DNA of 64,000 nucleotides from Craterostigma plantagineum. Taxonomy: Eukaryota > Streptophyta > Magnoliopsida > Lamiales > Linderniaceae. Location: positions 488,001 to 552,000 of the forward strand of contig JAPQWV010000412.1 of assembly GCA_027422505.1 (NCBI GenBank), written 5' to 3'. The translations under genes were made by a program, and so were the position numbers. The notes below the pieces were generated by a model. It made no database searches and was not told the origin of the DNA. It saw nothing but the letters and a program-made list of their open reading frames with translations. Positions 8,693-53,578 of this stretch are shown one piece after another. How positions within the stretch are numbered: the first letter of the stretch is position 1; each line of letters starts with the position of its first letter.

Positions 8693-10427
8693 TGAAGTAT
8701 AAAATATGCCTAAGAGGGCGGGGGGGGGGGGGGGGGGGGGGAATTAGGCTATAAAAAATTTGGCTTGGTCTTCTTTGGAAAATACTTTTCTTTACGAAGA
8801 TATTTTCAGAGTATGATATTTCACGACAACCGGTACGAGTACCTACGCTATCTTCCTAACCCTGTTCCACAGAATATCACGTTAGTTTCAGAAATCGTTT
8901 AAACGATATCTCCTAGTTATTTGCCAACGTTCCGGGTTTGTCTCACAGAAAAGTAAATAGCAGAAAGTAAAGTGAGACGGGATTTTTATATAGGTTGCAT
9001 CCCCAACTGGGGTTTAATCCTGTCCTTGGGGTGTGATCTCCCCAAGAGTTCCAATCAATCACTAGGTATTACCGGTTACACTATGATTGACCCGTACACA
9101 ACCGAAGCACTATGGACACTAGACCTCGTTCTAGGCTGACGCACGCCAAGTTTCGATCCACGTCGTTTACCCAGGAAACCTATTCCCCGACTGGATGCAG
9201 CTTGCTACCGAAGGGCCATCGAATCCACAAAATTCGTCCCTCCACGTGCTTAAGACTCCACTCGTGCTCCTTTGTGTCAACGCGCCCGCAGACACAACAC
9301 GTTCGAAGACAAGGTTTTTAGGATTTGGAGTTTCTAAGGTTCGCTCAAAGGGTACAGATTCGCAAATCAAAGCTCAACCACAAACTACGAATAAATCGCA
9401 AATTTCGCTCAAGAACTCTAAGGGATTCGCTAGCTCGTGTGTTCGTTGTCTTCTTACCCTTCAATCATGAAGTGTTCTCTTCTATATAGAACCAATTCTC
9501 GCTTCTACACTTCACAAGGAAAGTTAAGCACGAAAATATGCAAAAGACAGCTCAATCATCACGTGCATTAACTCAACCAATCATGCCAAGAATAAACCAA
9601 TTAAGCTCAACGGTCATGCATGATCACTTACCATAAATACCACAGATTAACATTCATTCCACCGTAATCTCATCCATTTGTCAACATATCCATATATATT
9701 CCACTCAGCATATTATCAACGGTAAGCTCAATCAACTGAATTCTTTCCCAAAATATGATAGCCAATTCGCACAGAGAAAGATTTGATCTACTGAGTATAA
9801 TGCGAAGTATATTTTTCATATATGGTCATCTCATCCGATTTTAGCACATTCCATAAATAGACTCAATCAGCATCTTACCACATATAAGTCCAATCAATTA
9901 ATCACTTTCCATAATATGAATCCTAAGTCGCACAAGGAAAGCAGGATTATGATTCACTGATTTAAGAGTCACATAATTCGCACTCAATGGATATAACATT
10001 GATATTCTTTCCTAAAATAGATCAATCATATGTAAGCACTTAATCAGAATATAATTTTCATATATACAGTATAGTCATTCATATCCGGGTGATCACATCG
10101 ATATTCTTTCCTAAAATAACTCAATCTCGCAGACAGTTTGCATATCACTCAACATGATATATTTTCCATATATAGCACACGACGAGATTCCATTCATACG
10201 AAAACGTTCATTACCAGGTGATCACATAAATTTTCAAGTTAAGCACACGATCACTCAAATTCGATTTTCTTAACAGTTAATCACATTCAAGCGCTTAATC
10301 GAACATTTTCACATACTTAAACATCACATAACATGCATATCGAGTTTTCTAATTTGTAGCCCCCAATTTACATAATTACTTGGAATAATCAAAGCTCTAA
10401 TAGTCATTTAGACCAAAAAGGTCTACA
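8693..10427 (-). repeat. 5' LTR of the Sirevirus-like element
   Basis: Bases 8853-10427 repeat 1-1562 of the window. In element sense the LTR begins TGTAGACC at 10427. The other edge is inferred at a TG at 8693 because that copy of the left LTR is outside the window. The length would be 1735 bp. It contains a 22-base G run at 8720-8741. Confidence 0.8.
8720..8741. repeat. Poly-G run of 22 bases
   Basis: Uninterrupted G22 near the inner edge of the 5' LTR. Such a run is rare in plant nuclear DNA and difficult to sequence, so its length is uncertain. Confidence 0.9.
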
Positions 10428-19045: not shown

Positions 19046-19050
19046 ACCTC

Positions 19051-21535
19051 AGTAGCGACCCTACTTTTCTAACTAGAATTAGTGGCGGATTTCCGCAACG
19101 TACGCCGCGGAAGGCCCGTCTAATTAAAAACTTTTTCCTAAAATAATATACAACATTATAAACATCCGTCTACATCGTTATTTCTGTACACGGGCCGAAG
19201 CCCCAAAAATGTCAAAAGAAACAAAAGTCCTAAAGCCGCTCCACAGGTCTTCATCCATGTACCGCCCCGCCCTCAAAAGTCCGTGGAGCACCGCCACCAG
19301 CCGCCTCAGTCACGACGCGTATCAGCGTCGGACTTAGTACCTACAACACGTAAACACTGAGCGAATTGCCCAGTAGGTGAATAAAATGCAATGCAGCGTG
19401 CACTCATTCCCAATTCCCAATTCTCGCAACATGATATAATGCACGCTCGGTTCCCACATTTCTATCGTATCTCAATATCAGGGCCCTAGGCTGGACTCGG
19501 CACCTCGCGCGCAATAAAATAAAATATATATATCGTCTGGTCGTTAACGCCAGACTAGCGGTGCCCACGCCGATAGTGCGCTGATCGATCACGTCAACGT
19601 CCTCCTATCAGGTCACCCCTTCCGCTACACAACACATCCGACGGTTTGCACCTCGGGTCGCTCACGCCCGAGTAGACAGATCGCTCACGTCTGTCTCCCG
19701 TCAGGTGCCCCGCGAGTCCAACCTCAACTCCGCTACGAGTCTGACTGCCAAAATCGGCACACTCTACCCGCTCAATCAACACCTTAAGTCTTAAGGTGTC
19801 ACTACTAATGTAGTCATTATCCCTCACCATGTCGTGCGATATCATGCATATACGTGAAACACATGAAACGTGACGTCACATAAAACATACGTAAAACACG
19901 TAAATCACATAAGTCACGTAATCACATAATAGCAGGTAAGCGTTTACGTGTCGTAGATGAATGATTCACCTACCTGTCCTCCTGATAAAGTTAGTAACAA
20001 AATCCGGTAAATTCCCTACGCTCCGATCCTCTGAATATTGGAAATATTATTATATCAATAAATTTACTAAGTCATATAAATTTTGAAAATGCTAAAATTA
20101 TCAAAACTTTTAAAATTTATGAAAACCTAAAAATAATAATAATCCTAAAATAAATAAACCCTAAAATATTGAAAACCTTCGAAATCGCAAAATTCTAAAA
20201 TACCGAAAATTTATTAAGTGAAACATAATGTCGAAATACCACATGTCGAGATCTACGAGCTTGCCGAGATCTTTGGTTTAGAAAAATGAAATGTCGAGTT
20301 CCTTGTAAAAATAAAGATCGAGACTTGAAATGTCGAAATCCTTAAAAATGTCGAGACCCTAAACAATATAAATGTCGAGACATATAAATATCGAGTCCTT
20401 TAAATATCGAAGTCTTATAAAATGTCGAGACTCTCTAAAAAACAAATATAAATGTCGAAGAGGTTCATAGAAGATGTCGAGACCTTAACAAAATGTCGAG
20501 ATCTCTTCTAGTTAAGAAAAGAACAAATGTCGAAAGTCATCACATATCGAGGTTTCTTATTACATATATATGTCTCGACTTTTATTCACTAAGCAGTTCG
20601 ACATCTTCCCATCCTTATCATGTATCGATATTTACATATAACTCGACATATTCAAATCCTCATCACACCTTTCGACATCTTTTGTAATTCATCTCGAATA
20701 TATCTCGACATTATCTATTGTATCTATCGAAATCTCCTTGTTATACACCCCGATTTCTAGGTATTACACATTTCGGAATCCTTCTACCACACTAACTTAT
20801 TATTCATTTCGAATATAACACCATATCTAGAACTTCTGGAATTCGTGGTTTCACTCAAAAACCCTAAAACATCCATAAAACACTCTGATGAACATCACTT
20901 TAAACACTTATTAACCTAAATCGAAACTTGAGTTTTCTATAAATGCTTTAAAGCCAATAGCTTCATAGATTTGATATTAACCATACATTAAAGTTACCTA
21001 GTTCATGTAGTATCATGAAAAACTTGCTAATACCGAAAATACATAAAGCATAATTAATTCAAGTGTTATAGATAGAACTGTATACCTACGTTCAACTTAT
21101 GAATTTTGATGCTATGCTTGCTAACACTTCCTTAGCACTAGGTGTGACTTTCGTATCTCTTCTCTTCTTCTTTTTATTCTCAGTACTACCCCGATTTCCC
21201 CTCAAAAGAGTATTAGCATTTTAGATATACATGAGTTGGTTTCTTTCCTAGGAATTTGTGAGGATAATGACGTTAAGTTACCTTGAGGTTAAGTAATGTT
21301 ATTACATATCATCTTTCCATGATTTTGGGCTAAATTTCGAAATATGCTTAAATCTAAATGTGGCCCACTTTAAACTTATTCTATATTATACCTAGCTCAA
21401 TAAATTTCGAAATTAATTTGAAATCTTAGGAATTTATACATGTATTTTATAGCTGGAATTTATTTAACAGGCTTCTTAGCTTCCAATTTACATATCTACT
21501 TACATCAAAACCCCGTAAAATTTACGGGTATTACA
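19051..21535 (-). repeat. 3' LTR of the Tekay-type element
   Basis: 2485 bp. In element sense it begins TGTAATACCCG and ends CGCTACT. Between about 20228 and 20740 it contains about 16 direct ATGTCGA-type heptamers followed by about 8 inverted copies (TCGACAT). Confidence 0.97.
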
Positions 21536-21552
21536 TCGTCCCCCTTAAAAGA
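21536..21552 (-). other. Polypurine tract of the Tekay-type element
   Basis: In element sense it reads TTCTTTTAAGGGGGACGA directly before the 3' LTR TGTAATACC. It is the plus-strand primer site typical of plant chromoviruses. Confidence 0.88.
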
Positions 21553-21567
21553 ATTTCGTCCCCGAAA

Positions 21568-22266
21568 TTACGCCGACTGGAATAACTCGGGATAACGAAT
21601 TTTCATATCATCCTCACGCTCCCAAGTGGCTTCCTCAATGGATTGATTCCGCCACAAAACTTTAACTAACGGAATAGTCTTATTCCGTAGTCGTTTCGAC
21701 TCGCACATCCAAATTTCTACGGGCTTCTCTTCATAACTCAAGTCAGGCTTGAGCTGTTGATAAAGAAGCTCGTTCTGAATCACATGACTCGGGTCCGCAA
21801 CGTATTTTCGTAACGTCGATACGTGAAATACGTCGTGAACTTGTGATAGGGAAGTCGGTAAGTCTAACTGATACGCAACCTCGCCGACTCGTTTGACTAT
21901 CTTGAAGGGGCCTATGTATCTGGGACTTAGCTTGCCCTTCTTTCCAAAACGCTTTACTCCTTTCATTGGGGAAATCTTTAGAAATACTTGATCGTCTTCT
22001 GCGAACTCCAAGGGTCGTCGGCGATGATCTGCATAACTCTTCTGTCGACTTTGAGCCGTTCGCATTCTTTCTCGGATTTTGGTCACTGCTTAGGTTGTTT
22101 CTCGAATCATATCGGGTCCTAATACAGCTCGTTCGCCTATTTCGTCCCAATGAACAAGGGATCGACACTTGCGCCCGTACAATGCCTCGTACGGTGCCAT
22201 CCCGATCGTGGCATAGAAGCTATTGTTGTAAGAAAATTCGATCAGCGGCAAGTACTTACTCCAGTC
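21568..22266 (-). pseudogene. Integrase C-terminus and chromodomain (Tekay)
   Basis: The 21568-22086 frame (172 codons) contains the GPFKIVKRVGEVAYQLDLP segment of the integrase C-terminal domain, then HDVFHVSTLRKY. It ends with a chromodomain-like tail (KVLWRNQSIEEATWERE). The chromodomain targets integration to particular chromatin. The same frame continues upstream ([12 protein letters not shown]) but is cut by an in-frame TAA at 22090-22092, which looks like a Glu codon changed by one base. Confidence 0.88.
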
Positions 22267-22960
22267 TGGGGATGATATGCAGTACTGAACGAGAGCTTAG
22301 TACCCATCGCTTTCTGTAAACTCTGCCAAAAGTTGGATAAAAATCTCGAATCTCGATCCGAGACGATGGAGATTGGGATTCCATGGAGTCGAACAATTTC
22401 CTGAATGTACAATTCAGCGTAGCGTTCCATGGAAAAAGTAGAACTGATTGGAAGGAAATGGGCTGATTTCGTCAGGCGGTCTACTACCACCCAGATAGCG
22501 TCATGGCCCTTCGTCGTCTTTGGTAAACCAACGACGAAGTCCATGGTGATATGGTCCCATTTCCATTCAGGAATCGGTAAAGGCTGCAGAGTTCCAGCTG
22601 GTCGCTGGTGTTCCGCTTTGATCAGCTGGCACGTCATACATCTACTCACGAACGTGGCGATATCCTTCTTCATTCCCGGCCACCAATATATGACTCGTAA
22701 ATCTTGGTACATCTTTGTCGCGCCCGGGTGTACTAAGTACGTTGTTGCGTGTGCCTCTGTCATTATCGCTCGTCGTAATTCCTCGTCGTTGGGCACGTAT
22801 AGTCGATTCTTGTATAACAAGGTTCCGTCTGCCCGGATTTCGGAGTCTTCAGGTAGTGTATCCTTCGCCTTTAGGTAGAATTCATCTTCTTCTTGTGCTG
22901 TTTGAATTCGTTCTAGCAACGTCGGCTGAAGAGTCAGCGCTGCTAGTTTCGTTTCGACTT
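22242..22960 (-). pseudogene. Integrase zinc-binding and catalytic core (Tekay), catalytic Glu region deleted
   Basis: The HHCC zinc-binding segment (H..H..CMTC) is followed by the core with MDFVVGLP (first Asp) and VSDRDSRF (second Asp), reaching AYHPQT near 22,270. The family then has a segment of about 25 residues containing the catalytic Glu. Here the sequence jumps within a few bases to the downstream SKYLPLIEF region, so the third catalytic residue is absent. This is a deletion rather than a homopolymer error. Confidence 0.87.
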
Positions 22961-23433
22961 CGCCCAAATCGACTATTTCCACTCCAAGCCTGTGTAGTTC
23001 CGTATTCATCGCCTTTCGACTAAGCGCGTCTGCGACTACGTTCGCTTTGCCCGGATGATAATTGATAACGCAATCGTAGTCCTTGACGAGCTCCAGCCAT
23101 CTTCGCTGTCGCATATTCAGTTCCTTCTGGGTGAAGAAATACTTCAGACTCTTATGATCTGTAAAGATTTCGCACCATTCTCCGTAAAGGTAGTGTCTCC
23201 AAATCTTTAAAGCAAAGACGACTGCTGCAAGTTCTAAGTCGTGGGTTGGGTAGTTCTTTTCGTATTCTTTTAGTTGCCGTGAAGCATAAGCGATCACCTT
23301 CCCATTTTGCATCAGCACGCATCCCAGTCCATTTTTCGAGGCATCACTATAGACTGAGAATCCTCCAGTTCCCGAGGGTATAGTTAGAACAGGAGCTATA
23401 GTAAGTCGTTTCTTTAGTTCTTGTAAACTCTGC
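22961..23433 (-). CDS. Gypsy RNase H (Tekay)
   Basis: This domain removes the RNA strand during reverse transcription. The frame is open from about 23433 through 23318 into integrase and contains [27 protein letters not shown] and [11 protein letters not shown], ending [10 protein letters not shown]. Catalytic acidic positions are present. It joins the reverse transcriptase frame through a one-base shift at an A7 run (23464-23470). Confidence 0.88.
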
Positions 23434-24271
23434 TCACATGCGTCTGTCCACTGGAAGGGTACATTTTTTTCTGGTCAAGTTTGTCAGAGTCGAGGCAATG
23501 CTAGAGAAGTCAGCTATGAACTTACGGTAATATCCCGCAAGTCCTAGAAAACTTCGGACTTCGGTCGGAGTAGTTGGTCGTGGCCAATTGTTCACGGCCT
23601 CAATCTTACTCGGGTCCACGGAGATTCCACTCCCGGAAATCAAGTGTCCCAAGAAGGCTACTTGCTCAAGCCAAAATTCACATTTCTTGAATTTGGCGTA
23701 GAGCTGTTTCTCATGCAAGGTTCCTAAGACGATTCGTAAGTGACTCTCGTGTTCTTCTTTCGTCTTAGAATAGATCAGAATGTCGTCAATAAAGACGATT
23801 ACGAAGCGGTCGAGATAGTCTTTAAAGACTCGGTTCATAAGATCCATAAAAGCAGCAGGGGCATTAGTCAGTCCGAAGGGCATGACCAAAAACTCGTAAT
23901 GGCCGTACCTCGTAATGAACGCCGTTTTTGGAACATCTGTCTCCCTGATTTTTAACTGATGGTATCCCGAACGGAGATCGATTATTGAGAATACCGTCGC
24001 ACCCTGTAGTTGGTCGAATAGACCATCGATCCTTGGTAACGGTATTTATTCTTGATCGTGATCTTGTTTAATTCCCGATAGTCGATACACAGTCGCATCG
24101 ACCCGTCTTTCTTTCGCACGAATAGGACTGGTGCTCCCCACGGTGAAAAGCTGGGCTGAATAAACCCCTTCTGCAACAAGTCCTCTAGCTGGTCTTTCAA
24201 TTCTTTCAGTTCGTTCGGCGCTAGTCGATAAGGAGCTTTAGAGATTGGGGCGGACCCCAGAATCAGATCTA
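23434..24271 (-). pseudogene. Gypsy reverse transcriptase (Tekay)
   Basis: The N-terminal segment (23982-24200) has [20 protein letters not shown] and CIDYRELN. The main segment (from about 24040 down to 23434) has the [10 protein letters not shown] region, MPFGLTNAP and FIDDILIYS with the polymerase Asp pair. The only break between them is a one-base loss in a C run at about 24041, so the domain would otherwise be complete. Confidence 0.9.
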
Positions 24272-24939
24272 TTATGAACTGTATTTCTCGATCAGGGGTA
24301 ACCCCGGGAGATCATCGGGAAATACATCAGGGTATTTGTTGACTACAGGTACGTCCTTTAGTTCCGGCTGAGGTAAGTCCTCCGCCCGTACCGCATATAC
24401 TAGATAAGACTCACAACCAGATCTCAATAGTCGTTGAGCCTTCAATGCCGAGATTTGAGGAATATGATTCAAAGTAGTTTTTCCCGAAAAAGTGAACACC
24501 TCTTCTTCGGGCAGTTGAAATTTAACGACCTTCTTGTTGCAATCTATGATGGCTCCATATCTTGAAAGCCAATCCATTCCGAAGATGACATCGTAGTCGT
24601 TCATCGGGATTACAATCAGGTCGGCACTCAAGTTCCTACCCTCAATAACTACGACGCATCCTTTCAGTACTTGGTTGGTATGCGTCGGATGCCCGTGTGG
24701 TAGAGTAACTACATAGTTGCATTCAGATGAGGTAGGAGATATTCCTACCTTCGCCACGTACTTAGCCGACACAAATGAATGTGTGGCTCCAGAATCAATA
24801 AGCACAGAAGTGGGCACGTTATAGATAGTTAACGTACCCGTCACGACAGAAGGATTCGCCTCGGCCTCCTCATTTGTCAAAGTAAAAACTCTCGCGGGAA
24901 CAGGTGGAGGTCGCATCGGCGGTTGGGCCGAGTTCCGCA
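24272..24939 (-). CDS. Gypsy aspartic protease (Tekay)
   Basis: The protease cleaves the polyprotein. The active-site segment [11 protein letters not shown] is intact and followed by the [20 protein letters not shown] segment typical of plant gypsy retropepsins. The same frame begins within the gag zinc-knuckle region (from 25150). It ends early, just before reverse transcriptase, at a G run (24302-24305) that looks one base short. Confidence 0.9.
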
Positions 24940-25823
24940 CTAGGGGTAAATTCTCCGTACAAGCTCTAGCAAAATGACCGATTTTCCGCATCGGAAATAT
25001 TGCGGCATCTGCCTTGTTCCAAAACAGGCCCCGAAATGGTAACGCCCGCATTGTCGACACTGGGGCGCAACATTTTGAGGTCGATTGGAGATATTGATCG
25101 GTCCCTGTATTGGTCTCGGTCGCCAGTTTTGTTGGCCCTGACGGTTCCATTGGGTATTAGGACCCTTGCCGAAAAACTGGCGTTTCTTATCTCCTCCGCT
25201 TCCTTGTTGGGCCTCTCTCCTCCTTTTCGCTTCCTGTGCTTCCACTACCACCGACTCTGCTTGTTCCGCAATTAAGGCACGTTCAGTTACTTGCATAAAC
25301 TCTAGTTGTCGTGCACCCGCAATACTTAAATCCCGATAGATTTCGGGTTTAAGTCCCTTGATGAACCTAGTCACTTTCAACGAATTAGTCGCTACTAACT
25401 GGGAGCAAATCGAGATAATTCTTCAAATCGGCGGATGTACTCCGCCACTGGCATGCTCCCTTGCTTTAAGCTCATGAACTCGTACATTCTTTGTTCTTGA
25501 TCGTGCGCCGTAAAGTATTTATTGAAGAAGAGATCCATAAACCTTTCCCAAGTCATAGTCACTGGACTCTCCAACACCTTTACGGTGTTCCACCAATAGC
25601 GCGCATTCTCTCGGAAAAGAGAAACGGCACAAATGACTTTTTCGTTGTCAGGCACTCGACTATAGATGAACATGTCCTCTATAGTGCCTATCCAATCTTC
25701 AGCCACCGCAGGATTGGTAGCTTCAGTAAATATTGGGGGGTTTAGCTTTCGAAATCGTTCCCCGATTAGTTCCACTCGATCAGGCTGCGGGGAATGTTCC
25801 GACGAGCTCCGGTGATGGATCAT
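24940..25823 (-). pseudogene. Gag of the Tekay-type element
   Basis: The capsid part (25395-25823) carries the Retrotrans_gag fold: AEDWIGTIEDMF, ARYWWNTV, TWERFMDLFFNKYF and EYIRRFEELSRFAP. The nucleocapsid part (24940-25380) is basic and ends with a Cys-rich region whose final CCHC knuckle is split by a frame change. Breaks lie at a C run at 25401-25403 and a G pair at about 24978; each is explained by one missing base. Confidence 0.9.
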
Positions 25824-26076
25824 GTCATTGATTTGATCCGACTCAATTGATGTATAGTAGAGCGGTCGTCATTTGGTGGGGATTCAGACCCCGCCCTACG
25901 GCTAGAACTGCCTACATCTCGACGTCGGCATTTTTATCTATTTCTACAATTATTCACATAGAGCACATATCAAATAACACGTAATAATGAAATCAAATAT
26001 TGAACTTATAGGCCAGGCTGGTTCTCCAGGCTTTTGAGCGGCGGTACATGAACAGTCTTCAGAACCTAGAGCCGAA

Positions 26077-26088
26077 GCTCTGATACCA
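26077..26088 (-). other. Primer-binding site of the Tekay-type element
   Basis: The minus strand reads TGGTATCAGAGC, complementary to initiator Met-tRNA, two bases from the 5' LTR edge at 26091. Confidence 0.93.
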
Positions 26089-26090
26089 CC

Positions 26091-28576
26091 AGTAGCGACC
26101 CTACTTTTCTAACTAGAATTAGTGGCGGATTTCCGCAACGTACGCCGCGGAAGGCCCGTCTAATTAAAAACTTTTTCCTAAAATAATATACAACATTATA
26201 AACATCCGTCTACATCGTTATTTCTGTACACGGGCCGAAGCCCCAAAAATGTCAAAAGAAACAAAAGTCCTAAAGCCGCTCCACAGGTCTTCATCCATGT
26301 ACCGCCCCGCCCTCAAAAGTCCGTGGAGCACCGCCACCAGCCGCCTCAGTCACGACGCGTATCAGCGTCGGACTTACTACCTACAACACGTAAACACTGA
26401 GCGAATTGCCCAGTAGGTGAATAAAATGCAGTGCAGCGTGCACTCATTCCCAATTCCCAATTCTCGCAACATGATATAATGCACGCTCGGTTCCCACATT
26501 TCTATCGTATCTCAATATCAGGGCCCTAGGCTGGACTCGGCACCTCGCGCGCAATAAAATAAAATATATATATCGTTTCGTCGTTAACGCCAGACTAGCG
26601 GTGCCCACGCCGATAGTGCGCTGATCGATCACGTCAACGTCCTCCTATCAGGTCGCCCCTTCCGCTACACAACACATCCGACGGTTTGCACCTCGGGTCG
26701 CTCACGCCCGAGTAGACAGATCGCTCACGTCTGTCTCCCATCAGGTGCCCCGCGAGTCCAACCTCAACTCCGCTACGAGTCTGACTGCCAAAATCGGCAC
26801 ACTCTACCCGCTCAATCAACACCTTAAGTCTTAAGGTGTCACTACTAATGTAGTCATTATCCCTCACCATGTCGTGCGATATCATGCATATACGTGAAAC
26901 ACATGAAACGTGACGTCACATAAAACATACGTAAAACACGTAAATCACATAAGTCACGTAATCACATAATAGCAGGTAAGCGTTTACGTGTCGTAGATGA
27001 ATGATTCACCTACCTGTCCTCCTGATAAAGTTAGTAACAAAATCCGGTAAATTCCCTACGCTCCGATCCTCTGAATATTGGAAATATTATTATATCAATA
27101 AATTTACTAAGTCATATAAATTTTGAAAATGCTAAAATTATCAAAACTTTTAAAATTTATGAAAACCTAAAAATAATAATAATCCTAAAATAAATAAACC
27201 CTAAAATATTGAAAACCTTCGAAATCGCAAAATTCTAAAATACCGAAAATTTATTAAGTGAAACATAATGTCGAAATACCACATGTCGAGATCTACGAGC
27301 TTGCCGAGATCTTTGGTTTAGAAAAATGAAATGTCGAGTTCCTTGTAAAAATAAAGATCGAGACTTGAAATGTCGAAATCCTTAAAAATGTCGAGACCCT
27401 AAACAATATAAATGTCGAGACATATAAATATCGAGTCCTTTAAATATCGAAGTCTTATAAAATGTCGAGACTCTCTAAAAAACAAATATAAATGCCGAAG
27501 AGGTTCATAGAAGATGTCCAGACCTTAACAAAATGTCGAGATCTCTTCTAGTTAAGAAAAGAACAAATGTCGAAAGTCATTACATATCGAGGTTTCTTAT
27601 TACATATATATGTCTCGACTTTTATTCACTAAGCAGTTCGACATCTTCCCATCCTTACCATGTATCGATATTTACATATAACTCGACATATTCAAATCCT
27701 CATCACACCTTTCGACATCTTTTGTAATTCATCTCGAATATATCTCGACATTATCTATTGTATCTATCGAAATCTCCTTGTTATACACCCCGATTTCTAG
27801 GTATTACACATTTCGGAATCCTTCTACCACACTAACTTATTATTCATTTCGAATATAACACCATATCTAGAACTTCTGGAATTCGTGGTTTCACTCAAAA
27901 ACCCTAAAACATCCATAAAACACTCTGATGAACATCACTTTAAACACTTATTAACCTAAATCGAAACTTGAGTTTTCTATAAATGCTTTAAAGCCAACAG
28001 CTTCATAGATTTGATATTAACCATACATTAAAGTTACCTAGTTCATGTAGTATCATGAAAAACTTGCTAATACCGAAAATACATAAAGCATAATTAATTC
28101 AAGTGTTATAGATAGAACTGTATACCTTACGTTCAACTTATGAATTTTGATGCTATGCTTGCTAACACTTCCTTAGCACTAGGTGTGACTTTCGTATCTC
28201 TTCTCTTCTTCTTTTTATTCTCAGTACCACCACGATTTCCCCTCAAAAGAGTATTAGCATTTTAGATATACATGAGTTGGTTTCTTTCCTAGGAATTTGT
28301 GAGGATAATGACGTTAAGTTACCTTGAGGTTAAGTAATGTTATTACATATCATCTTTCCATGATTTTGGGCTAAATTTCGAAATATGCTTAAATCTAAAT
28401 GTGGCCCACTTTAAATTTATTCTATATTATACCTAGCTCAATAAATTTCGAAATTTAATTGAAATCTTAGGAACTTATACATGTATTTTATAGCTGGAAT
28501 TTATTTAACAGGCTTCTTAGCTTCCAATTTACATATCTACTTACATCAAAACCCCGTAAAATTTACGGGTATTACA
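26091..28576 (-). repeat. 5' LTR of the Tekay-type element
   Basis: 2486 bp, nearly identical to the 3' LTR. It carries the same ATGTCGA direct and inverted heptamer cluster (about 27268-27780). Confidence 0.97.
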
Positions 28577-28858: not shown

Positions 28859-28863
28859 GTCGG

Positions 28864-29321
28864 TGTAACATCCCGTCCCATACCGGGTGTCACTGTAGCA
28901 TCCGTCCCTACCGGGACCAGTGGGGTTGAGCCCACCACACTCCGACTGATAGTCTGGCCCCACTGTACCACCATTTAAACCTTCCAGCGTGCTTCGTCCT
29001 CGCTCACACGCACCCTGGGCAAACTTCCCAGGGGGTCACCCATCCTAAGATTGCTTCAAGTCAAGCACGCTTAACCTCGAAGGATGGACTCCCGAAAGGG
29101 TAGGTCGACCTTGGCGATATGAGTAGTACTATCAATTCTTTTATACGATTCTTAGCCTGACACGCCCATACATTGTCAGTCTCAGGATCCCCTCTCATTC
29201 GAGTGTCGGATCGGTTCTTTAATGTACCCTTCGCCTAGAAGCCTGCCAGGAGCCGCTCCTTATCCGTGCACTTCTCTGGCACCGGCGACCACTCCCCGCC
29301 CTCATCGGCCCCGGGGTCACA
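28864..29321 (-). repeat. Cassandra LTR L1
   Basis: Outermost left LTR. The plus strand begins TGTAACATCCCG and ends GGGGTCACA. The 5S-like domain lies at about 28995-29130. A 72-bp internal domain follows at 29322-29393. Confidence 0.9.
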
Positions 29322-29393
29322 TGCCCACCAGCTTCCGTCTGGTTCGTCCCCGAACCAGCACCGTACTGCGAGAGGTTGTGCTCTGATACCACC

Positions 29394-29857
29394 TATAACA
29401 TCCCGTCCCATACTCGGTGTCACTGTAGCATCCGTCCCTACCGGGACCAGTGGGGTTGGGCCCACCACACTCCGGCTGATAGTCTGGCCCCACTGACCAC
29501 CATTTACCTTCCAGCGTGCTTCGTTCTCGCTCACACGCACCCTGGGCAAACTTCCCAGGGGGTCACCCATCCTAGGATTGCTTCAAGTCAAGCACGCTTA
29601 ACTTCGAAGTTCTTTAGGATGGACTCCCGAAAAGGTAGGTCGAGCTTGGTGATATGAGTAGTACTATCAATTCTTTTGTACGATTCTTAGCCTGACACGC
29701 CCATACATTGTGAGTCTCAGGATCCCCTCTCATTCGGGTGTCGGATCGGTTCGTTCAAGTCCCCCTTCGCCTAGAAGCCTGCCAGGAGCCGCTCCTTGTC
29801 CGTGCACCTCTCTGCACCGGCGATCACTCCCCGCCCTCTTCGGCCCCGGGTGTCACA
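29394..29857 (-). repeat. Cassandra LTR L2
   Basis: The outer end reads TATAACATC in place of TGTAACATC, the same private change found in R2. The 5S-like domain lies at about 29535-29670. The internal domain is 29858-29929. Confidence 0.9.
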
Positions 29858-29929
29858 TGCCCACCAGCTTCCGCCTGGTTCGTCCCCGAACCAGCACCGT
29901 ACTGCGAGAGGTTGTGCTCTGATACCACC

Positions 29930-30395
29930 TGTAACAACCCGTCCCATACCGAGTGTCACCGTAGCATCGGTCCCTACCGGGACCAGTGGAGGGTTGGGCC
30001 CACCACACTCCGATTGATAGTCTGGCCCCACTGTACCACCATTTAACCTTCCAGCGTGCTTCGTCCTCGCTCACACGCACCCTGGCATACTTCCCAGGGG
30101 GTCACCCATCCTAAGATTGCTTCAAGTCAAGCACGCTTAACTTCGAAGTTCTTTCGGATGGACTCCCGAAAAGGTAGGTCGACCTTGGGATATGAGTAGT
30201 ACTATCACTTCTTTTATACGATTCTTAGCCTGACACGCCCATATATTGTCAGTCTCAGGATCCCCTCTCATTCGGGTGTCGGATCGGTTCGTTCATGTAC
30301 CCCTTCGCCTAGAAGCCTGCCAGGAGCCGCGCCTTGTCCGTGCACTTCTCTGGCACCGGCGATGACTCCCCGCCTCATCGGCCCCGGGTGTCACA
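29930..30395 (-). repeat. Cassandra LTR L3
   Basis: Starts TGTAACAACCCG. The 5S-like domain lies at about 30070-30205. The internal domain is 30396-30467. Confidence 0.9.
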
Positions 30396-30467
30396 TGCCC
30401 ACCAGCTTCCGCCTGGTTCGTCCCCGAACCAGCACCGTACTGCGAGAGGTTGTGCTCTGATACCACC

Positions 30468-30929
30468 TGTAACATCCCGTCCCAAACCGGGTGTCACTGT
30501 AGCATCCGTCCCTACGGGGACCAGTAGGGTTGGGCCACCACACTCCGATTGATAGTTTGGCCCCACTGTACCACCATTTAACCTTCCAGCGTGCTTCGTC
30601 CTCGCTCACACGCACCCTGGGCATACTTCCTAGGGGGTCACCCATTCTAAGATTGCTTCAAGTCAAGCACGCTTAACTTCGAAGTTCTTTCGGATGGACT
30701 CCCGAAAAGGTAGGTCGACCTTGGTGATATGAGTAGTACTATCAATTCTTTTATACGATTCTTAGCCTGACACGCCCATACATTGTCAGTCTCAGGATCC
30801 CCTCTCATTCGGGTGTCGGATCGGTCGTTCATGTACCCCTTCGCCTAGAAGCCTGCCAGGAGCCGCGCCTTGTCCGTGCACTTCTCTGGCACCGGCGATC
30901 ACTCCCCGCCCTCATCGGCCCCGGGTGTC
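30468..30929 (-). repeat. Cassandra LTR L4 (inner end truncated)
   Basis: Ends CCCCGGGTGTC, lacking the final ACA, where it joins the plastid 23S fragment. The 5S-like domain lies at about 30610-30745. Confidence 0.88.
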
Positions 30930-30930
30930 C

Positions 30931-31074
30931 AAGAGCCGACATCGAGGTGCCAAACCTTCCCGTCGATGTGAGCTCTTGGGGAAGATCAGCCTGTTATCCC
31001 TAGAGTAACTTTTATCCGTTGAGCGACGGCCCTTCCACTCGGCACCGTCGGATCACTAAGGCCGACTTTCGTCC
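30931..31074 (-). pseudogene. Plastid-type 23S rRNA fragment (domain V)
   Basis: The minus strand reads as the highly conserved part of large-subunit rRNA around the peptidyl-transferase centre, including GGGATAACAGGCTGATC, CACATCGACGGGAAGG and CACCTCGATGTCGGCTC. The wording between these conserved blocks fits plastid rather than cytosolic 26S rRNA. A mitochondrial or bacterial origin is less likely but needs alignment. It is 144 bp and sits exactly at the centre between the two inverted Cassandra halves. Confidence 0.85.
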
Positions 31075-31075
31075 A

Positions 31076-31538
31076 TGTGACACCCGGGGCCGATGAGGGC
31101 GGGGAGTGATTGCCGGTGCCAGAGAAGTGCACGGACAAGAAGCGGCGCTGGCAGGCTTCTAGGCGAAGGGGCACATGAACGAACCGATCCGACACCCGAA
31201 TGAGAGGGGATCCTGAGGGACAATGTAATCTGGCGTGTCAGGCTAAGGAATCGTACAAAAGAATTGATAGTACTACTCATATCACCAAGGTCGACTACCT
31301 TTTCGGGAGTCCATCCTAAAGAACTTCGAAGTTAAGCGTGCTTGACTTGAAGCAATCTTAGGATGGGTGACCCCTGGGAAGTTTGCCCAGGGTGCGTGTG
31401 AGCGAGGACGAAGCACGCTGGAAGGTTAAATGGTGGTCAGTGGGGCCAGACTATCAGTCGGAGTGTGGTGGGCCCAACCCCACTGGTCCGGTAGGGACGG
31501 ATGCTACAGTGACACCGAGTATGGGACGGGATGTTACA
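31076..31538 (+). repeat. Cassandra LTR R1
   Basis: Begins TGTGACACCCGG and ends GGGATGTTACA. It directly follows the 23S fragment, with CA at the join. The internal domain is 31539-31610. Confidence 0.9.
31266..31401 (+). ncRNA. 5S rRNA-like domain within Cassandra LTR (R1 example)
   Basis: Contains GTTAAGCGTGCTTG (5S internal A box) and GGATGGGTGACC followed by CTGGGAAG (C box). These are the internal RNA polymerase III promoter elements of plant 5S rRNA genes. The 5' half is diverged from cellular 5S rRNA. Equivalent domains lie in the other six LTRs; in R2 near 31800-31937 and R3 near 32335-32475. It is part of a mobile element, not a bona fide 5S gene. Confidence 0.8.
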
Positions 31539-31610
31539 GGTGGTATCAGAGCACAACCTCTCGCAGTACGGTGCTGGTTCGGGGACGAACCAGACGGAAG
31601 CTGGTGGGCA

Positions 31611-32074
31611 TGTGACACCCGGGGCCGATGAGGGCGGGGAGTTGTTGCCGGTGCCAGAGAAGTGCACGAATAAGGAGCGGCTCCTGGCAGGCTTCTAGGC
31701 GAAGGGGTACATTAAAGAACCGATCCGACACCGAATGAGGGGGATCCTGAGACTGACAATGTATGGGCGTGTCAGGCTAAGAATCGTATAAGAGAATTGA
31801 TAGTACTACTCATATCGCCAAGGTCGACCTACCCTTTCGGGAGTCCATCCGAAAGAACTTCGAGGTTAAGCGTGCTTGACTTGAAGCAATCTTAGGATGG
31901 GTGACCCTGGGGGAAGTTTGCCCAGGGTGCGTGTGAGCAAGGACGAAGCACGCTGGAAGGTTAAATGGTGGTACAGTGGGGCCAGACAATCAGTCGGAGT
32001 GTGGTGGGCCCAACCCCACTGGTCCGGTAGGGACGGATGCTACAGTGACACCCGGTATGGGACGGGATGTTATA
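31611..32074 (+). repeat. Cassandra LTR R2
   Basis: Ends GATGTTATA in place of GATGTTACA, mirroring the altered end of L2. The internal domain is 32075-32146. Confidence 0.9.
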
Positions 32075-32146
32075 GGTGGTATCAGAGCACAACCCTCTCG
32101 CAGTACGATGCTGGTTGGGGACGAACCAGGCGGAAGCTGGTGGGCA

Positions 32147-32611
32147 TGTGACACCCGGGGCCGATGAGGGCGGGGAGTGATTGCCGGTGCCAGAGAAGTG
32201 CACGGACAAGAAGCGGCTCCTGGCAGGCTTCTAGGCGAAGGGGCACATGAACGAACCGATCCGACACCCGAATGAGAGGGGATCCTGAGACTGACAATGT
32301 ATGGGCGTGTCAGGCTAAGAATCGTACAAAAGAATTGATAGTACTACTCATATCACCAAGGTCGACCTACCTTTTCGGGTGTCCATCCGAAAGAACTTCG
32401 AAGTTAAGCGTGCTTGACTTGAAGCAATCTTAGGATGGGTGACCCCCTGGGAAGTTTGCCCAGGGTGCGTGTGAGCGAGGACGAAGCACGTTGGAATGTT
32501 AAATGGTGATCAGTGGGGCCAGACTATCAGCCGGAGTGTGGTGGGCCCAACCCCACTGGTCCCGGTAGGGACGGATGCTACAGTGACACCGGGTATGGGA
32601 CGGATGTTACA
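32147..32611 (+). repeat. Cassandra LTR R3
   Basis: Outermost right LTR. Ends ATGTTACA directly before the GTCGG duplication. Confidence 0.9.
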
Positions 32612-32616
32612 GTCGG

Positions 32617-35600: not shown

Positions 35601-38600
35601 GAATTACGCTAAACTCAGACTACATTGTTACTTCCTCCGTTCCTTCACTTCAGTCTTTGTCTAGAACCAACAAAGAGGCATTAAGGAGGAGTGCTGGATT
35701 CAAGCCCAGGGGTGGTAATCAGTTCCGTACATACTTACGAGCCCCTTATCTCTATTTAGATGATGATCGTCTTCTCACCTTAGTACACGTAAGACTGACT
35801 TAATCAGACAGTTTCACATAATCTTACTTCAAGGGTCGTTATGAGGTTAGGTATAGAAAGAGTTCTAAGTGCATTTTCGAAAAAGATTCATTCACAAGAG
35901 AGAGAAGAGAAACTAGATAACTACGTGACTTAAATATGTAAATTTTAGTTATTCCGTTACGACTTTTCTGCTAAAGTGGATTGGTCTATCTTTATTAGAT
36001 AGAAAAAGCTTTCTCCTATCTTTTATGTAATTTCGCGGACTTTCTTTTCTCTCTTGGATTGGTATCTTTTCCCGTGCTTGTTTGCACTATACATCATACC
36101 TAAAAACAAGGAAACCCGCTTGTTTTGTTAGAACGATGGTTAGGTCTCGCAAGAGACACTACTAACTTGCCTCCTCATACTAGAAGAGAACTGAACTCGC
36201 TAGTCCCTCATCTGCTTTAGACTTGTTAAACTAAGACCCTTTAAAAAAAAAGATATCAGACTGGAAACTAGAAGGTTTGGAACCCTAACAACGATACTCA
36301 AAGGGTCAGGTCAACTCACTGCTTCTATCGCCTCTCCATACCCAAGCCCATAAAAAGCAAGCCATCTCTTCACCTCCACCCGGGCGATTTTCCCGAGAGG
36401 AAGAAAAGGCTCTTTGCAATAAGCGCAGTTCGAGGAATAGAATAACCATATCCGCTGCTGTGAAAGTCTCCGGTCTTACAGTAAGCGCTCTTAGGCCGCA
36501 GTTCTAAAATCTAGCTAGTTCGATTTGAACTAATCCGAATCAAGGGGTTGCGAGCGATGTCCCCATATGCGACCATGGAAAATGGAAGAGCATTGCATTA
36601 GAAAGGTAGACTATGAGCAAAGTAGCGGAGGAAGAAGTGACAAAAGTTAGGGTTGTTTCCACACCTGAACCTGAGGACTAATCCGAAGAAGCTGATACAA
36701 GGTTCGCAGATGCTGACACACAAAGTATGGAGTTTCCAACTGATTGACCAACTAGGTTAGGAGTTGGACCAGTAGCAGGAGAAAATACGGGGTTACCAAC
36801 ATAAAAACGAAACTTCAAGATCAGCTGCAGGTCTAAAAAGGATTCGATTCCAATACAAGCTTGTCAATTCATAGACCTATGTTATGTGCTACAAAACTGA
36901 CTGATTCTCAGCAACAAGAGACTTCAAAATAGGGCCCAGTCTAGTAGCAATCACTTTAGTTATAAACGTTACAGCAAGAACCTGAAGTGAAGTCTTCATC
37001 CGATGACGGCGCACTTGTTGCCGTTGATGGTCCCATCACCTGTTACTAGAGAATGACCCGTAGTTTTCTATTCCTCACCATCAGTGGAACTAGAGAAACA
37101 GCACCAACTCATTTCCAGGACTTTCAGCTATAGTTGAAACTGTTGAGGAATATGAAACAACAGGTTTTGAAATACTAGCTAAACCTTTCCATCTTCAGTC
37201 ACTTCAATCTTTCTAGTTACAGTAGCAGGTGAGCTAAGGCCCGCAACCAAAGAGGAGAAAAGGCCATGTACATTATCCGAAAAGCGCAGTTGTTCTTATT
37301 TCATTTCCCTCTATAAAGCCCTTCTTTCAGTTGAATGTTTGCAATGTCCGAACTCCCTGTGTGAAGCCCCCCTAAGAGCTGATTCGAGAACTGTAAGATC
37401 AGTCAAGCAGGCTAGTCAAGTACTCCTGTAAGCCATAAAGCAAAGAGCGTAGCGGGTAATCTGTGCAAGAAGTGACTTCCTTGCCTTAATAACTTCTTAT
37501 CTGTCCATTCAAAAAGAAAAGAGAGGAGGATGAATATGAAAATGAAACCTTGATCTTCTTATACGATTACGATAACACCACACCAAATTCAACTTCCTTC
37601 CTGCTAAGGCACTAGCTTTGCCAAACCTTGGTACATGTATGTGGGCTTTCCGCTTCGGCTTCTCATGTCAATCTTCCAATGTCTTGCCATTTTCTCTTAT
37701 ATAGATATATATAGGCCTTGTCCTCTTCTATTCCTGTGGTAAGTGTGGGACTAATTGAATTTCATTCTTGTCTGCTAAGATAATTCTTCTTCCTCACAGC
37801 TTGCATTCGATGCTTCTGATTCAATAATTCCTTCTAACAGGGCATTCACTGAACTAGTTTCCCTGGTCCCCGTCGGGAATGGAGGCTTCTAAACCTTGCC
37901 TTTTCCATCGCAAACTAACCTAAGTCGCACTACTGGGTATCTCTCTTGATACTCTGCCAGGCGTTGACCAGCTTGTGGCCCTACCGCGGGTGGTGAACCG
38001 GATCGAAGAATGACCGTAGATCAAATTGAGCTTCAAAATAGAAAGAGTACAGCACCCTAACTGAAACAGAACTCTTGGGGTAGGCTAGCTACTAGTCGTC
38101 CTAAAAGAGAGATCTTTGTTTTGCTTTAGCAAGAGGCCTATTGTTCGCAGACACCTACTTCTATTAGATATTAGAAGTGACATAAAAGACAAAGATTCTT
38201 TGTTGTTTCTGAGAAAGAGTTCGAGATCAGAGAGGGCAGACCTGCCACAACGTCTGGCATAGTGGGAAATGGTGCCCTTGGCTCAGTCCTGCCAGCAGTA
38301 GTTCTTTCGATGCTATTACTATTGGGCAGAGCGCTAACCGAGTCTGAGTCTTGTGTCTCAACTTTATATTATAGTCGAGTGAGCTCGCTTACTCTGATCC
38401 TACTGCGTAGACGTCGTCTAATAGGCTACAGCACCAGATCATCATCAGCAAGAAAACGTGTATGCGCTAACGCTATATGGCTGATGGGGGTTCACGCTCG
38501 GACATTACTTGTTGGGTACGCTAGACCGGTGAATTGGGACCGGAACTTTTCAACAGCAAGAGAAAGTCTAACTGATACAAAATAAGAGTCTCCTCTGCGG

Positions 38601-38671
38601 CAATCATCAAACTCCATAGCAAATTCGAGCCTTTTAAGACTAGTGGATCCGCTTACCAATAGCCAGACGGA
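32617..38671. other. Six-kb gene-free block of organelle-like (mitochondrial-type) DNA
   Basis: No LTR, TIR, tandem repeat or plant nuclear gene is recognised. Frames are short on both strands. Base composition is balanced, with many AAGAAAG, CTTTCTT and CTAGC-type words, a texture like plant mitochondrial intergenic DNA. This suggests a nuclear mitochondrial insertion (NUMT), but I could not match a specific mitochondrial gene. The longest frames (38262-38585 plus; 35065-35295 minus) have no recognisable domain. It abuts the glutaredoxin gene at about 38670. Confidence 0.4.
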
Positions 38672-39039
38672 AACTAATTCGCCGGAAATATGCGCACCCA
38701 TCACGACTTCCATACCGCCGAGCAGCTCGCCGCCGACGAAAACTGCCGGGAAGGTCGGCTTCACGGCGGCGGAGGAGATCTTCTCCAGCTCCTCGGCGAC
38801 GGCGCCTTCGTTTTCGTCGCCGACGTCGAAGAACGTGGGGCTGACGCCGTGGCCGTGGAGGAGAAGCTTGAGCACGTGGCACATGTAGCAATCCTTTCTA
38901 GCGAGCACCACCACCGCGTTCTCCGATAGAAGCTTCTTCAAGTCTTCCGATGTGGTGCTGCAGCCTCCGTGTTCCTCGTCGGAGGCGCGGCGGCGGCGGT
39001 GGGGAGCCAATTATCTCTGAGAGGAAGTGTTTGTTGCAT
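38672..39039 (-). CDS. CC-type (plant-specific, ROXY-like) glutaredoxin, frame-broken and 3'-altered
   Basis: Plant CC-type glutaredoxins are thiol oxidoreductase-like proteins that bind TGA bZIP factors and modulate development and defence. The likely ATG is at 39039 (MQQTLPLRDNW, the usual family start), one frame away from the core because of a one-base change near the C4/GCC-rich tract at about 39,000. The core keeps VVVLARKDCYMCHVLKLLL (active site C-Y-M-C at 38879-38890 rather than the usual C-C-x-C/S), PTFPAVFVGGELLGGM (glutathione-binding) and GAHISGELV. The family's C-terminal ALWL motif is missing: after GELV the frame runs into the organelle-like block. A GTAAGC at about 38656 could be a splice donor. 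Confidence 0.75.
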
Positions 39040-42053: not shown

Positions 42054-43717
42054 TGATCGAGCGGATCGAGTATTAAAATAAAACGAATATCGACGAAACT
42101 AACTACGCTCAACAGGCAAGTGTACCTATCGAAAATAGTATAGAAATGGCAAATATTCGAGTATCGAACCCAAAGGAACTATATACTTTAGAAAACTGTC
42201 GTTTAAATATCCTAGTGAATATTTTTGTGATGTTTGAAAATTTAAATAACGATAAACACTTAAAATAAACAGTTTAATAAAGATATAAAAACGGTGACCT
42301 TATGAACGAACACGTATTGAGACTTCGAATCCCCCTAGCTCGACCGAACGACAAATAAATAATATATTTAGCTAATTATTAGACCGTGAGGATTCCTAAG
42401 ATATGTATACGAATTTCTACGATTGGGCGAAACTGCGCTTACTCGCTTTGACTCGCAACAACTAATCTACGTTTTAACTAGTTGGGCAAGCTTCCCTAAC
42501 TTACTTAACCGCAGGCGGCAATAAATAATGATGATCCCGCTAGTAGATTTGACTCTAATCCGGCGGGTTAGTTCAACCTATCTCTAGCGATGAGTTTATT
42601 CCGCTCGTTTACGAGTGGTCTAATCGTCGCCCCTCTCTCGAGCGTAGCGATCGATTTCCCAACAATTATTCGACCACATAGACATAATCAAAATAATAGC
42701 ATATATCGTAACCGAGTCATAATAAAAAGCATACCAATAATACTTTAAACACACGTACGATATCGCTAGGGTTCATCTAATCTCAAATACGACAAGATTT
42801 AACTACTCATATGAAACATCAACGCGACGAGAAGCGTAAATAACAACGAGAAAAATATATTTTCTTCCCTGAATTTCGCCTTCCTTCGTTGAGGAATTTC
42901 GTCGAGCAGATGGTGGGCGAGTTGCGAATGCACACGATAATCACGTTGCTGCCCCCTTGCTGGCTCCTAACACGCATGCAGCCCAATCTTGCCTACACAC
43001 AACTACCTCGCTTAGATGTTCCTTGAGTTAGAGCTGGTCAGCAGCGCCTTCCTTGGTGAGAGCTGAGAGCTTCGTCGATGTTCCTCTGTGATGAAATTTC
43101 AGCCCCGAGCAGCACCAAGAGCAGCGAGCTCGATTCCTCCGCGGTGTCGTGTTTCGTTGTTCTGCCAAATATTGCTTCGGGTGGCCTCGAACGTGAGCTT
43201 TGAGTGAAGTGTATGCGTGTGTATGGTCTCGTCCTCCTCCTCCACTTGCACGTTGATCCTTCCTATATATAGATAGTTGAGGGGAGACAAAAATCCTTAT
43301 TTTTCTGCTCAAGAACGGCATACGATCGTTCTTTCTTCCTTGAGCCGTGAGCTTTTGATTTTCTTCATCTTTTGCGTTCGGCGTGCTGAGTGTCTCTCTT
43401 TAGTCAATCGTGCGTGTATGAGTACGTGTGCATTTTTGTATCTATTCTGTCCTTGTAGTATGGGCTTGGGCACTTTCCTTTGGGCTCTTTTATGGGCCCG
43501 ATTTAATGGGCTTTTGATTAGGAATTGATGGGCCGAGTTTTGCTGGTTCTTCAAATTGATTCAAGCCCGAATATTATCGGTTGTAATTCTTTCTCCCAAT
43601 ATCTGTCAAAAATCAAACATAAACGTATGCGTATGATATTCGAAGAAAATTCAAATAAATAACAACCGATATTACGCTTTTACAGGGTATAAAATACGAT
43701 ATAAATTTCATTTATCA
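42054..43717 (-). repeat. 3' LTR of the Athila-like element
   Basis: 1664 bp; the plus strand begins TGATCGAGCGG and ends TTTATCA. ORFs inside it are chance ORFs. The polypurine tract GTGTGGGGAGATT (element sense) follows at 43718-43730. Confidence 0.95.
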
Positions 43718-47137: not shown

Positions 47138-48804
47138 TGATCGAGCGGATCGAGTAATAAAATAAAACGAATATCGACGAACTAACTACGCTCAACAGGC
47201 AAGTGTACCTATCGAAAATAGTATAGAAATGGCAAATATTCGAGTATCGAACCCAAAGGAACTATATACTTTAGAAAACTGTCGTTTAAATATCCTAGTG
47301 AATATTTTTGTGATGTTTGAAAATTTAAATAACGATAAACACTTAAAATAAACAGTTTAATAAAGATATAAAAAACGGTGACCTTATGAACGAACACGTA
47401 TTTGAGACTTCGAATCCCCCTAGCTCGACCGAACGACAAATAAATAATATATTTAGCTAATTATTAGACCGTGAGGATTCCTATGATATGTATACGAATT
47501 TCTACGATTGGGCGAAACTGCGCTTACTCGCTTTGACTCGCAACAACTAATCTACGTTTTAAATAGTTGGGCAAGCTTCCCTAACTTACTTAACCGCAGA
47601 CGGCAATAAATAATGATGAATCCCGCTATTAGATTTGACTCTAATCCGGCGGGTTAATTCAACCTATCTCTAGCGATGAGTTTATTCCGCTCGTTTACGA
47701 GTGGTCTAATCGTCGCCCCTCTCTCGAGCGTAGCGATCGATTTCCCAACAATTATTTCGACCACATAGACATAATCAAAATAATAGCATATATCGTAACC
47801 GAGTCATAATAAAAAGCATACCAATAATACTTTAAACACACGTACGATATCGCTAGGGTTCATCTAATCTCAAATACGACAAGATTTAACTACTCATATG
47901 AAACATCAACGCGACGAGAAGCATAAATAACAACGAGAAAAATATATTTTCTTCCCTGAATTTCGCCTTCCTTCGTTGAGGAATTTCGTCGAGCAGATGG
48001 TGGGCGAGTTGCGAATGCACACGATAATCACGTTGCTGCCCCCTTGCTGGCTCCTAACACGCATGCAGCCCAATCTTGCCTACACACAACTACCTCGCTT
48101 AGATGTTCCTTGAGTTAGAGCTGGTCAGCAGCGCCTTCCTTGGTGAGAGCTGAGAGCTTCGTCGATGTTCCTCTGTGATGAAATTTCAGCCCCGAGCAGC
48201 ACCAAGAGCAGCGAGCTCGATTCCTCCGCGGTGTCGTGTTTCGTTGTTCTGCCAAATATTGCTTCGGGTGGCCTCGAACGTGAGCTTTGAGTGAAGTGTA
48301 TGCGTGTGTATGGTCTCGTCCTCCTCCTCCACTTGCACGTTGATCCTTCCTATTTATAGATAGTTGAGGGGAGACAAAAATCCTTATTTTTCTGCTCAAG
48401 AACGGCATACGATCGTTCTTTCTTCCTTGAGCCGTGAGCTTTTGATTTTCTTCATCTTTTGCGTTCGGCGTGCTTGAGTGTCTCTCTTTAGTCAATGTGC
48501 GTGTATGAGTACGTGTGCATTTTTGTATCTATTCTGTCCTTGTAGTATGGGCTTGGGCACTTTCCTTTGGGCTCTTTTATGGGCCCGATTTAATGGGCTT
48601 TTGATTAGGAATTGATGGGCCGAGTTTTGCTGGTTCTTCAAATTGATTCAAGCCCGAATATTATCGGTTGTAATTCTTTCTCCCAATATCTGTTAAAAAT
48701 CAAACATAAACGTATGCGTATGATATTCGAAGAAAATTCAAATAAATAACAACCGATATTACGCTTTCACAGGGTATAAAATACGATATAAATTTCATTT
48801 ATCA
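47138..48804 (-). repeat. 5' LTR of the Athila-like element
   Basis: 1667 bp, near-identical to 42054-43717. Confidence 0.95.
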
Positions 48805-53144: not shown

Positions 53145-53578
53145 TGCATGTTCCAAAACTGTATCTCTGTTGTTCGCTGTTATTCTATCTATCTCTTTTG
53201 TCTCTGCTTTTTTTGTTGTTGCTGAAACTTGGATGAGGTCGTTTGTTGCTGTTTTCTACTGTCTTTTGTCTCGCTGGATGATGTTGTTGATGAGCCTTGG
53301 ATAAAGATCAACTGAAGCTGCTGTTTTTTTGTCTCTGTACAGTAAATATTTAGCTGTGTAAACTGTTGTACTTCGGCTGTCTGTGTATAATGTAAACTGG
53401 TTTATGTATCGGCTCTTTTGATTGAATCGTGTGTTAATTTGAATTGTGTTTAAATGGAGTATTGGGAGAGTTAAATTTTGGTGGGAATAATTAGTGGACT
53501 AATTTCTCTCTCCAAATTGTACTAAAATATTAAGTAAAAGGCTCCTTATCCTTAATTTATGTGCCAACTAATTGTTGG

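Follow-up and report, generated by a model that had tools for sequence, protein, structure and literature searches.

Positions 28864-32611 of the window, by which we mean the whole analysed stretch of 64,000 nucleotides of Craterostigma plantagineum DNA, contain 144 bp of plastid-type 23S sequence with four Cassandra LTRs on its left, in minus orientation, and three on its right, in plus orientation. We consider it probable, at about 0.58, that two linear Cassandra cDNA multimers were joined U3-to-U3 by way of plastid sequence and that their U5 ends were integrated in one concerted event. This reading accounts for the four edges, the CA extension at the hinge and the single target duplication. 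The figure is a judgement, as are the weights put into words below for three other readings, and none of them is a computed likelihood. The coordinates, LTR counts and orientations given by a sequence-only reading of this DNA were all correct on re-examination, and the block is laid out as follows (window positions).

28859-28863, no strand: target duplication GTCGG, left copy
28864-29321, minus strand: Cassandra LTR L4, type A; left outer edge formed by its U5 end (CA); carries a private 8-nt deletion
29322-29393, minus strand: internal domain L3-L4; variant CCAGACGG, common to R1-R2; PBS TGGTATCAGAGC
29394-29857, minus strand: Cassandra LTR L3, type C; TA at its end
29858-29929, minus strand: internal domain L2-L3
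29930-30395, minus strand: Cassandra LTR L2, type B
30396-30467, minus strand: internal domain L1-L2
30468-30929, minus strand: Cassandra LTR L1, type B; U3 end at the hinge, without TGT
30918-30929, no strand: junction match; LTR end GCCCCGGGTGTC against 23S flank GCCCCAGGTGGC, 10/12 in register
30931-31074, minus strand: plastid-type 23S rRNA piece; the sense strand is the minus strand
31074-31075, plus strand: CA dinucleotide before R1; the same two bases precede intact array LTRs; the C is possibly common with 23S
31076-31538, plus strand: Cassandra LTR R1, type C; U3 end intact, at the hinge
31539-31610, plus strand: internal domain R1-R2; variant CCAGACGG
31611-32074, plus strand: Cassandra LTR R2, type A; TA at its end
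32075-32146, plus strand: internal domain R2-R3
32147-32611, plus strand: Cassandra LTR R3, type C-like; right outer edge formed by its U5 end (CA)
32612-32616, no strand: target duplication GTCGG, right copy

Identity of the LTRs

A 5S box A/box C pair with an 18-nt spacer is present in all seven LTRs and nowhere else in the window. The LTRs are separated by five internal domains of 72 nt each, and in 5/5 of these the PBS TGGTATCAGAGC follows the 5' LTR, 2 nt (GG) from the U5 end. According to excerpts of Kalendar et al. 2020 (PMC7215508), 5S boxes and this PBS are the published marks of Cassandra. The LTRs are 458-466 bp long (L1 being shortened at the hinge); six of the seven start with TG, the exception being the shortened L1, and five end with CA while L3 and R2 end with TA. 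Rfam 5S_rRNA gave three matches in the window, all below gathering (E 0.076-0.88); the Cassandra boxes are nonetheless exact. The LTR-internal-LTR unit of about 1,000 bp falls outside the element size of 563-968 bp reported for one angiosperm set in the consulted part of PMC10853983, a range which is not a strict criterion. The LTRs themselves, of about 464 bp, are above the longest Cassandra LTR, about 400 bp, of one survey in the same part of that article, and may represent a long form particular to a clade. Inside the block there is one stop-to-stop frame of 144 aa, at 29223-29657.

Origin of the 23S sequence at the hinge

No Rfam family matched anywhere in the window at gathering thresholds. 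With an E-value threshold, LSU_rRNA_bacteria matched two stretches on the minus strand, with E 5.9e-13 (49.6 bits, gathering 50) and 8.6e-6 (27.9 bits), the former extending into L1 at lower confidence. This bears out the 144 bp core of 23S rRNA that had been proposed from the letters: 30931-31074 is 23S in antisense. It is identical at 144/144 positions to a plastid-type patch in a phytoplasma assembly (L002), at 134/144 to a second phytoplasma assembly (L001), at 135/144 to a cyanobacterium (L003) and at 129/144 to Paenibacillus (L004). A 36-mer from the piece was found exactly in two records among 84,980 species genomes, both phytoplasmas, and a search among viral contigs gave 0 matches.

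The 23S genes of the two phytoplasma assemblies consist of ordinary phytoplasma sequence with plastid-type patches of differing extent. We set aside a phytoplasma origin of the hinge piece because the patches in both genes look most simply like host plastid contamination, probably from host reads. The label plastid-type, for the piece and for the patches, we take partly from general knowledge, besides using the patch in the phytoplasma assembly as a stand-in for the plastid. The patches lie at approximately 4244-4398 in L001 and 7019-7178 in L002; over columns 100-199 from the core start the two assemblies are 100/100 identical, and most neighbouring windows are at 83-93%.

Between the hinge piece and the plastid-type patch there are 0 changes in 144 positions, where 1.3 would be expected at the rate of the closest LTR pair and 3.1 at that of the mean pair. 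The probability of no change is 0.27 at the rate of the closest pair, 0.24 from private substitutions, 0.047 for the mean pair and 0.011 for the most distant pair. The setting is nuclear: LTR retrotransposons and a flowering-plant-like glutaredoxin frame flank the block.

Edges, junctions and target duplication

On the outside the block is bounded at both edges by LTR 3' (U5) ends, and the two edges at the hinge are LTR 5' (U3) ends, so that the ordinary pattern of one U3 and one U5 outer end is not found here. On both sides the short target duplication GTCGG adjoins LTRs that end with CA (two random 5-mers from the window agree with a probability of 0.0012). The outer LTRs L4 and R3 thus keep CA, and the inner L3 and R2 end with TA. 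It had been proposed that a single GTCGG duplication serves the whole block and that two separate duplications would speak for halves inserted independently. A separate duplication was looked for at the edges of both halves and none was found; in element sense GTCCA precedes R1 and TCTTG precedes L1, while the far ends adjoin GTCGG/CCGAC. The proposal therefore stands, and independent insertion of the two halves is ruled out because neither is flanked by a duplication of its own.

At the hinge, L1 is without the TGT with which the LTR starts, and its edge is thus within 3 nt of the LTR start. On the other side the LTR start of R1 is complete and has CA in front of it, as have all five of the other intact starts; this CA beyond R1 looks as an unprocessed cDNA end would. 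At the left junction the last 12 bases of L1 and the plastid-type flank match at 10 of 12 positions in register. When 50,550 12-mers on both strands of the four 23S-bearing records (L001-L004) were tested, two reached 10 and six reached 9, and the two at 10 are the junction site itself in L001 and L002. Because a match of this quality is otherwise absent among these 12-mers, sequence match probably directed the left junction, as it does in copying primed by microhomology. At the right junction at most one base is in common, followed by TG after a mismatch. The single base at 30930, between the end of L1 and the 23S piece, is attributed to neither. A hairpin at the target site was also considered and not adopted; the inverted match across the joined empty site is only 10 bp (E 0.95).

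Relations among the seven LTRs

The LTRs were compared in 21 pairs with a private rearranged stretch of R1 masked (alignment columns 142-158, approximately 31216-31233), which looks like a local replacement rather than point changes. Pairs then differ by 1.8-6.3%. R1-R3 is the closest pair (8/444), followed by L3-R1 (12/443), L1-L2 (12/442) and L4-R2 (12/437). The closeness of R1 and R3 depends on the mask, since by substitutions in the unmasked alignment L4-R2 comes first (12/454) and R1-R3 differ at 20/461. In the first 110 columns R1 and R3 show two differences from each other and at least eight from any other LTR. Reverse transcription makes the first and the last LTR of one molecule alike. 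Such likeness is seen for R1-R3 and fails for L1-L4, the end LTRs of the left half (18/435, tenth of the 21 pairs), as it does for L1-R3 (19/443), which would be expected alike if the whole block were the cDNA of one array.

By shared variants the LTRs were assigned to types A, B and C, and in sense the order is B B C A in the left half and C A C in the right. As types are common to both halves, the sequence implies either one source array or later conversion. The internal-domain variant is likewise common to L3-L4 and R1-R2. The closest pairs across the hinge, L3-R1 and L4-R2, are two units apart and the halves are not mirror images of each other; a mirror-image artefact or a fold-back of one array is ruled out because these closest partners are not the mirrored ones. 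R1 as a recombinant of R3 and L3 is suggestive only (permutation p 0.063) and was not adopted.

How the block may have arisen

In the reading that we prefer, there would have been two linear multimeric cDNAs, one of four LTRs and one of three. Transcripts of two to five Cassandra units have been reported, according to excerpts of PMC7215508. The ends at the hinge would be cDNA ends. The trimmed 3' end of L1 would have annealed to plastid 23S, been extended on it by about 144 nt and then been joined to the end of R1, while the two outward U5 ends would have been inserted at one target with a single 5-bp stagger, presumably by an integrase borrowed from another LTR element. The joining could have preceded the integration, or the U5 ends of two separate cDNAs could have been integrated concertedly, which would leave a chromosome break capped by free U3 ends, later sealed by repair with plastid sequence. 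The two orders give an identical sequence. A fuller version of the second, which we put forward tentatively and hold to be somewhat doubtful, is that a single intasome took the U5 ends of two different Cassandra cDNAs and joined them to the two opposite strands of the same target, so that the chromosome was broken and a U3 end was left on either side of the break, after which repair primed from one of these U3 ends on plastid 23S, through the 10/12 match, sealed the gap. The excerpts consulted describe HIV-1 IN/LEDGF complexes that bind two U5 duplexes (PMC3623958) and organelle DNA taken up by unrepaired nuclear breaks (PMC12181080). Were this version true, integration itself would have made both the inverted repeat and the landing site for organelle DNA.

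The two-cDNA reading is supported by the single 5-bp duplication, which encloses the whole block and neither half, by the CA ends kept at the outer L4 and R3 where the inner L3 and R2 end with TA, by R1 and R3 being the closest pair, as one reverse-transcription product would give, and by hinge edges that sit at LTR starts, with two bases beyond R1 just as two bases part U5 from the PBS, together with the junction match. It is weakened by L1 being unlike L4, which should match after reverse transcription, and also by the mutation-free hinge and by the regular order that appears once an inversion is undone. These last points belong to an alternative that was missing from those offered by the sequence-only reading and that we regard as less likely but still take seriously, as the most credible of the rivals: an in-place inversion of one older seven-LTR array with plastid filler. 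One insertion would have grown by unequal exchange into a head-to-tail array L1-L2-L3-L4-R1-R2-R3, in which L1-L4 then flipped, with one break 3 nt inside the left edge, at a TGT microhomology, and another between L4 and R1, at the junction with the plastid filler. L1 misses exactly the TGT that the left stub could retain, and the U3 and U5 ends are near-inverted repeats beginning with TGT. Undoing the flip restores the order B B C A C A C, regular as in one older array, in which L3-R1 and L4-R2 are close at two units' distance and the internal-domain variant is shared by L3-L4 and R1-R2. An inversion also has no need of matching end LTRs, and a later, younger hinge agrees with 0/144 changes. 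Against it, three breakpoints (the left edge, the U5 end of L4 and the CA before R1) would have to fall on LTR boundaries by chance or through a short TGT match.

Of the two origins that had been suggested for the block earlier, the one that agrees best with the edges is the joining, by repair, of extrachromosomal Cassandra DNA to plastid DNA, to which we add that the joining may also follow integration. The other, capture of RNA, has the right strand, since extension from the end of L1 copies sense rRNA, and rRNA is abundant. Here reverse transcriptase would have run on from the 3' end of a Cassandra minus-strand cDNA, with plastid 23S rRNA as its template, before switching to another Cassandra cDNA, and what resulted would have been integrated; we hold this to be quite improbable, as plastid DNA accounts for the identical sequence, the last bases of L1 must be gone before the extension, and no RNA-specific feature was seen. 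Plastid DNA in nuclear breaks is, moreover, well documented in the consulted part of PMC12181080. An assembly that misjoined separate Cassandra arrays and plastid reads is a known hazard where similar repeats meet abundant plastid DNA. It would nevertheless make coincidences of the 5-bp duplication whose two copies match and each adjoin a CA end, of the unequal, non-mirrored halves (1.8-6.3% apart, masked) and of the match-guided junction, and we think it very improbable.

Relation to known systems

Within each half the head-to-tail LTR-internal-LTR units, the 5S boxes and the PBS are as in the tandem Cassandra arrays of Kalendar et al. 2020 (PMC7215508), for which multi-unit transcripts are known. 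The arrays described in the excerpts of that article are one-directional, unlike the facing halves here, and "inverted" there refers to PCR primers; in its main text "plastid", "chloroplast" and "head-to-head" each have 0 occurrences. A short plastid-type fragment in nuclear DNA is also what NUPTs are, and these enter breaks through end joining or short homology (PMC6215612 and PMC12181080, in part), whereas the fragment here sits precisely where two retrotransposon U3 ends meet, within a single target duplication. In yeast, end joining or integrase acting on linear LTR-element DNA yields end-joined or autointegrated circles, inverted products among them (PMC4751563, in part), but those circles come from one molecule, whereas the present block combines two arrays with foreign sequence in the middle and is inserted in a chromosome. 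Retroviral concerted integration, as treated in excerpts of PMC8742673 and PMC3623958, is alike in its two ends, two-nucleotide end processing and 5-bp duplication; in a normal insertion a single molecule contributes one end of each kind, U3 and U5, whereas both outer ends here are U5.

Among the papers that a literature search listed, none was on an inverted Cassandra array with plastid sequence, nor do the consulted parts of PMC7215508 and PMC10853983 hold one; the sugar-beet Cassandra paper (Maiwald et al. 2021), which lay outside this search, may describe inverted forms. Cassandra arrays running head to tail and transcripts of several units are already known, as are NUPTs and LTR-element circles that are end-joined or inverted; what this search did not turn up is the combination seen at this single locus, facing arrays around organelle sequence within one duplication. 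If the hinge ends are indeed cDNA ends, this locus would link LTR-element end integration, DNA end repair and organelle-to-nucleus DNA transfer, which are usually studied apart. Any plant genome can be screened for this signature, which consists of U5 ends on the outside with a single 5-bp duplication, U3 ends on the inside that are intact to within a few nt, and filler separating them, and the frequency with which two cDNAs integrate together therefore becomes testable. Judging from their layout, inverted arrays with 5S-type promoters could also yield hairpin RNA.

Surroundings of the block

A Gypsy-type LTR retrotransposon occupies 19050-28576, with LTRs of 2.5 kb that are 99.3% identical (19050-21535 and 26090-28576), and ends 282 bases before the duplication of the block. 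Two further pairs of long direct repeats, 1-1562 / 8853-10427 (95.9%) and 42054-43717 / 47138-48804 (99.0%), are each likely the LTR pair of another retroelement. A transposase-like frame at 52599-53255 has DUF7769 above the Pfam cut-off and a Tc3-type HTH below it. On the minus strand, the frame at 38492-39010 (Pfam Glutaredoxin, 1.2e-9) is most like glutaredoxin-C9 of Lamiales plants, which would place the host probably within Lamiales or close to it; the best 20 of its 53 matches show 53-67% identity over 52-66% of the query. Seventeen of these 20 carry names, for example Andrographis, Perilla, Forsythia, Sesamum, Primulina and Fraxinus, all of them genera which we take to belong to Lamiales, and cucurbits follow lower down.
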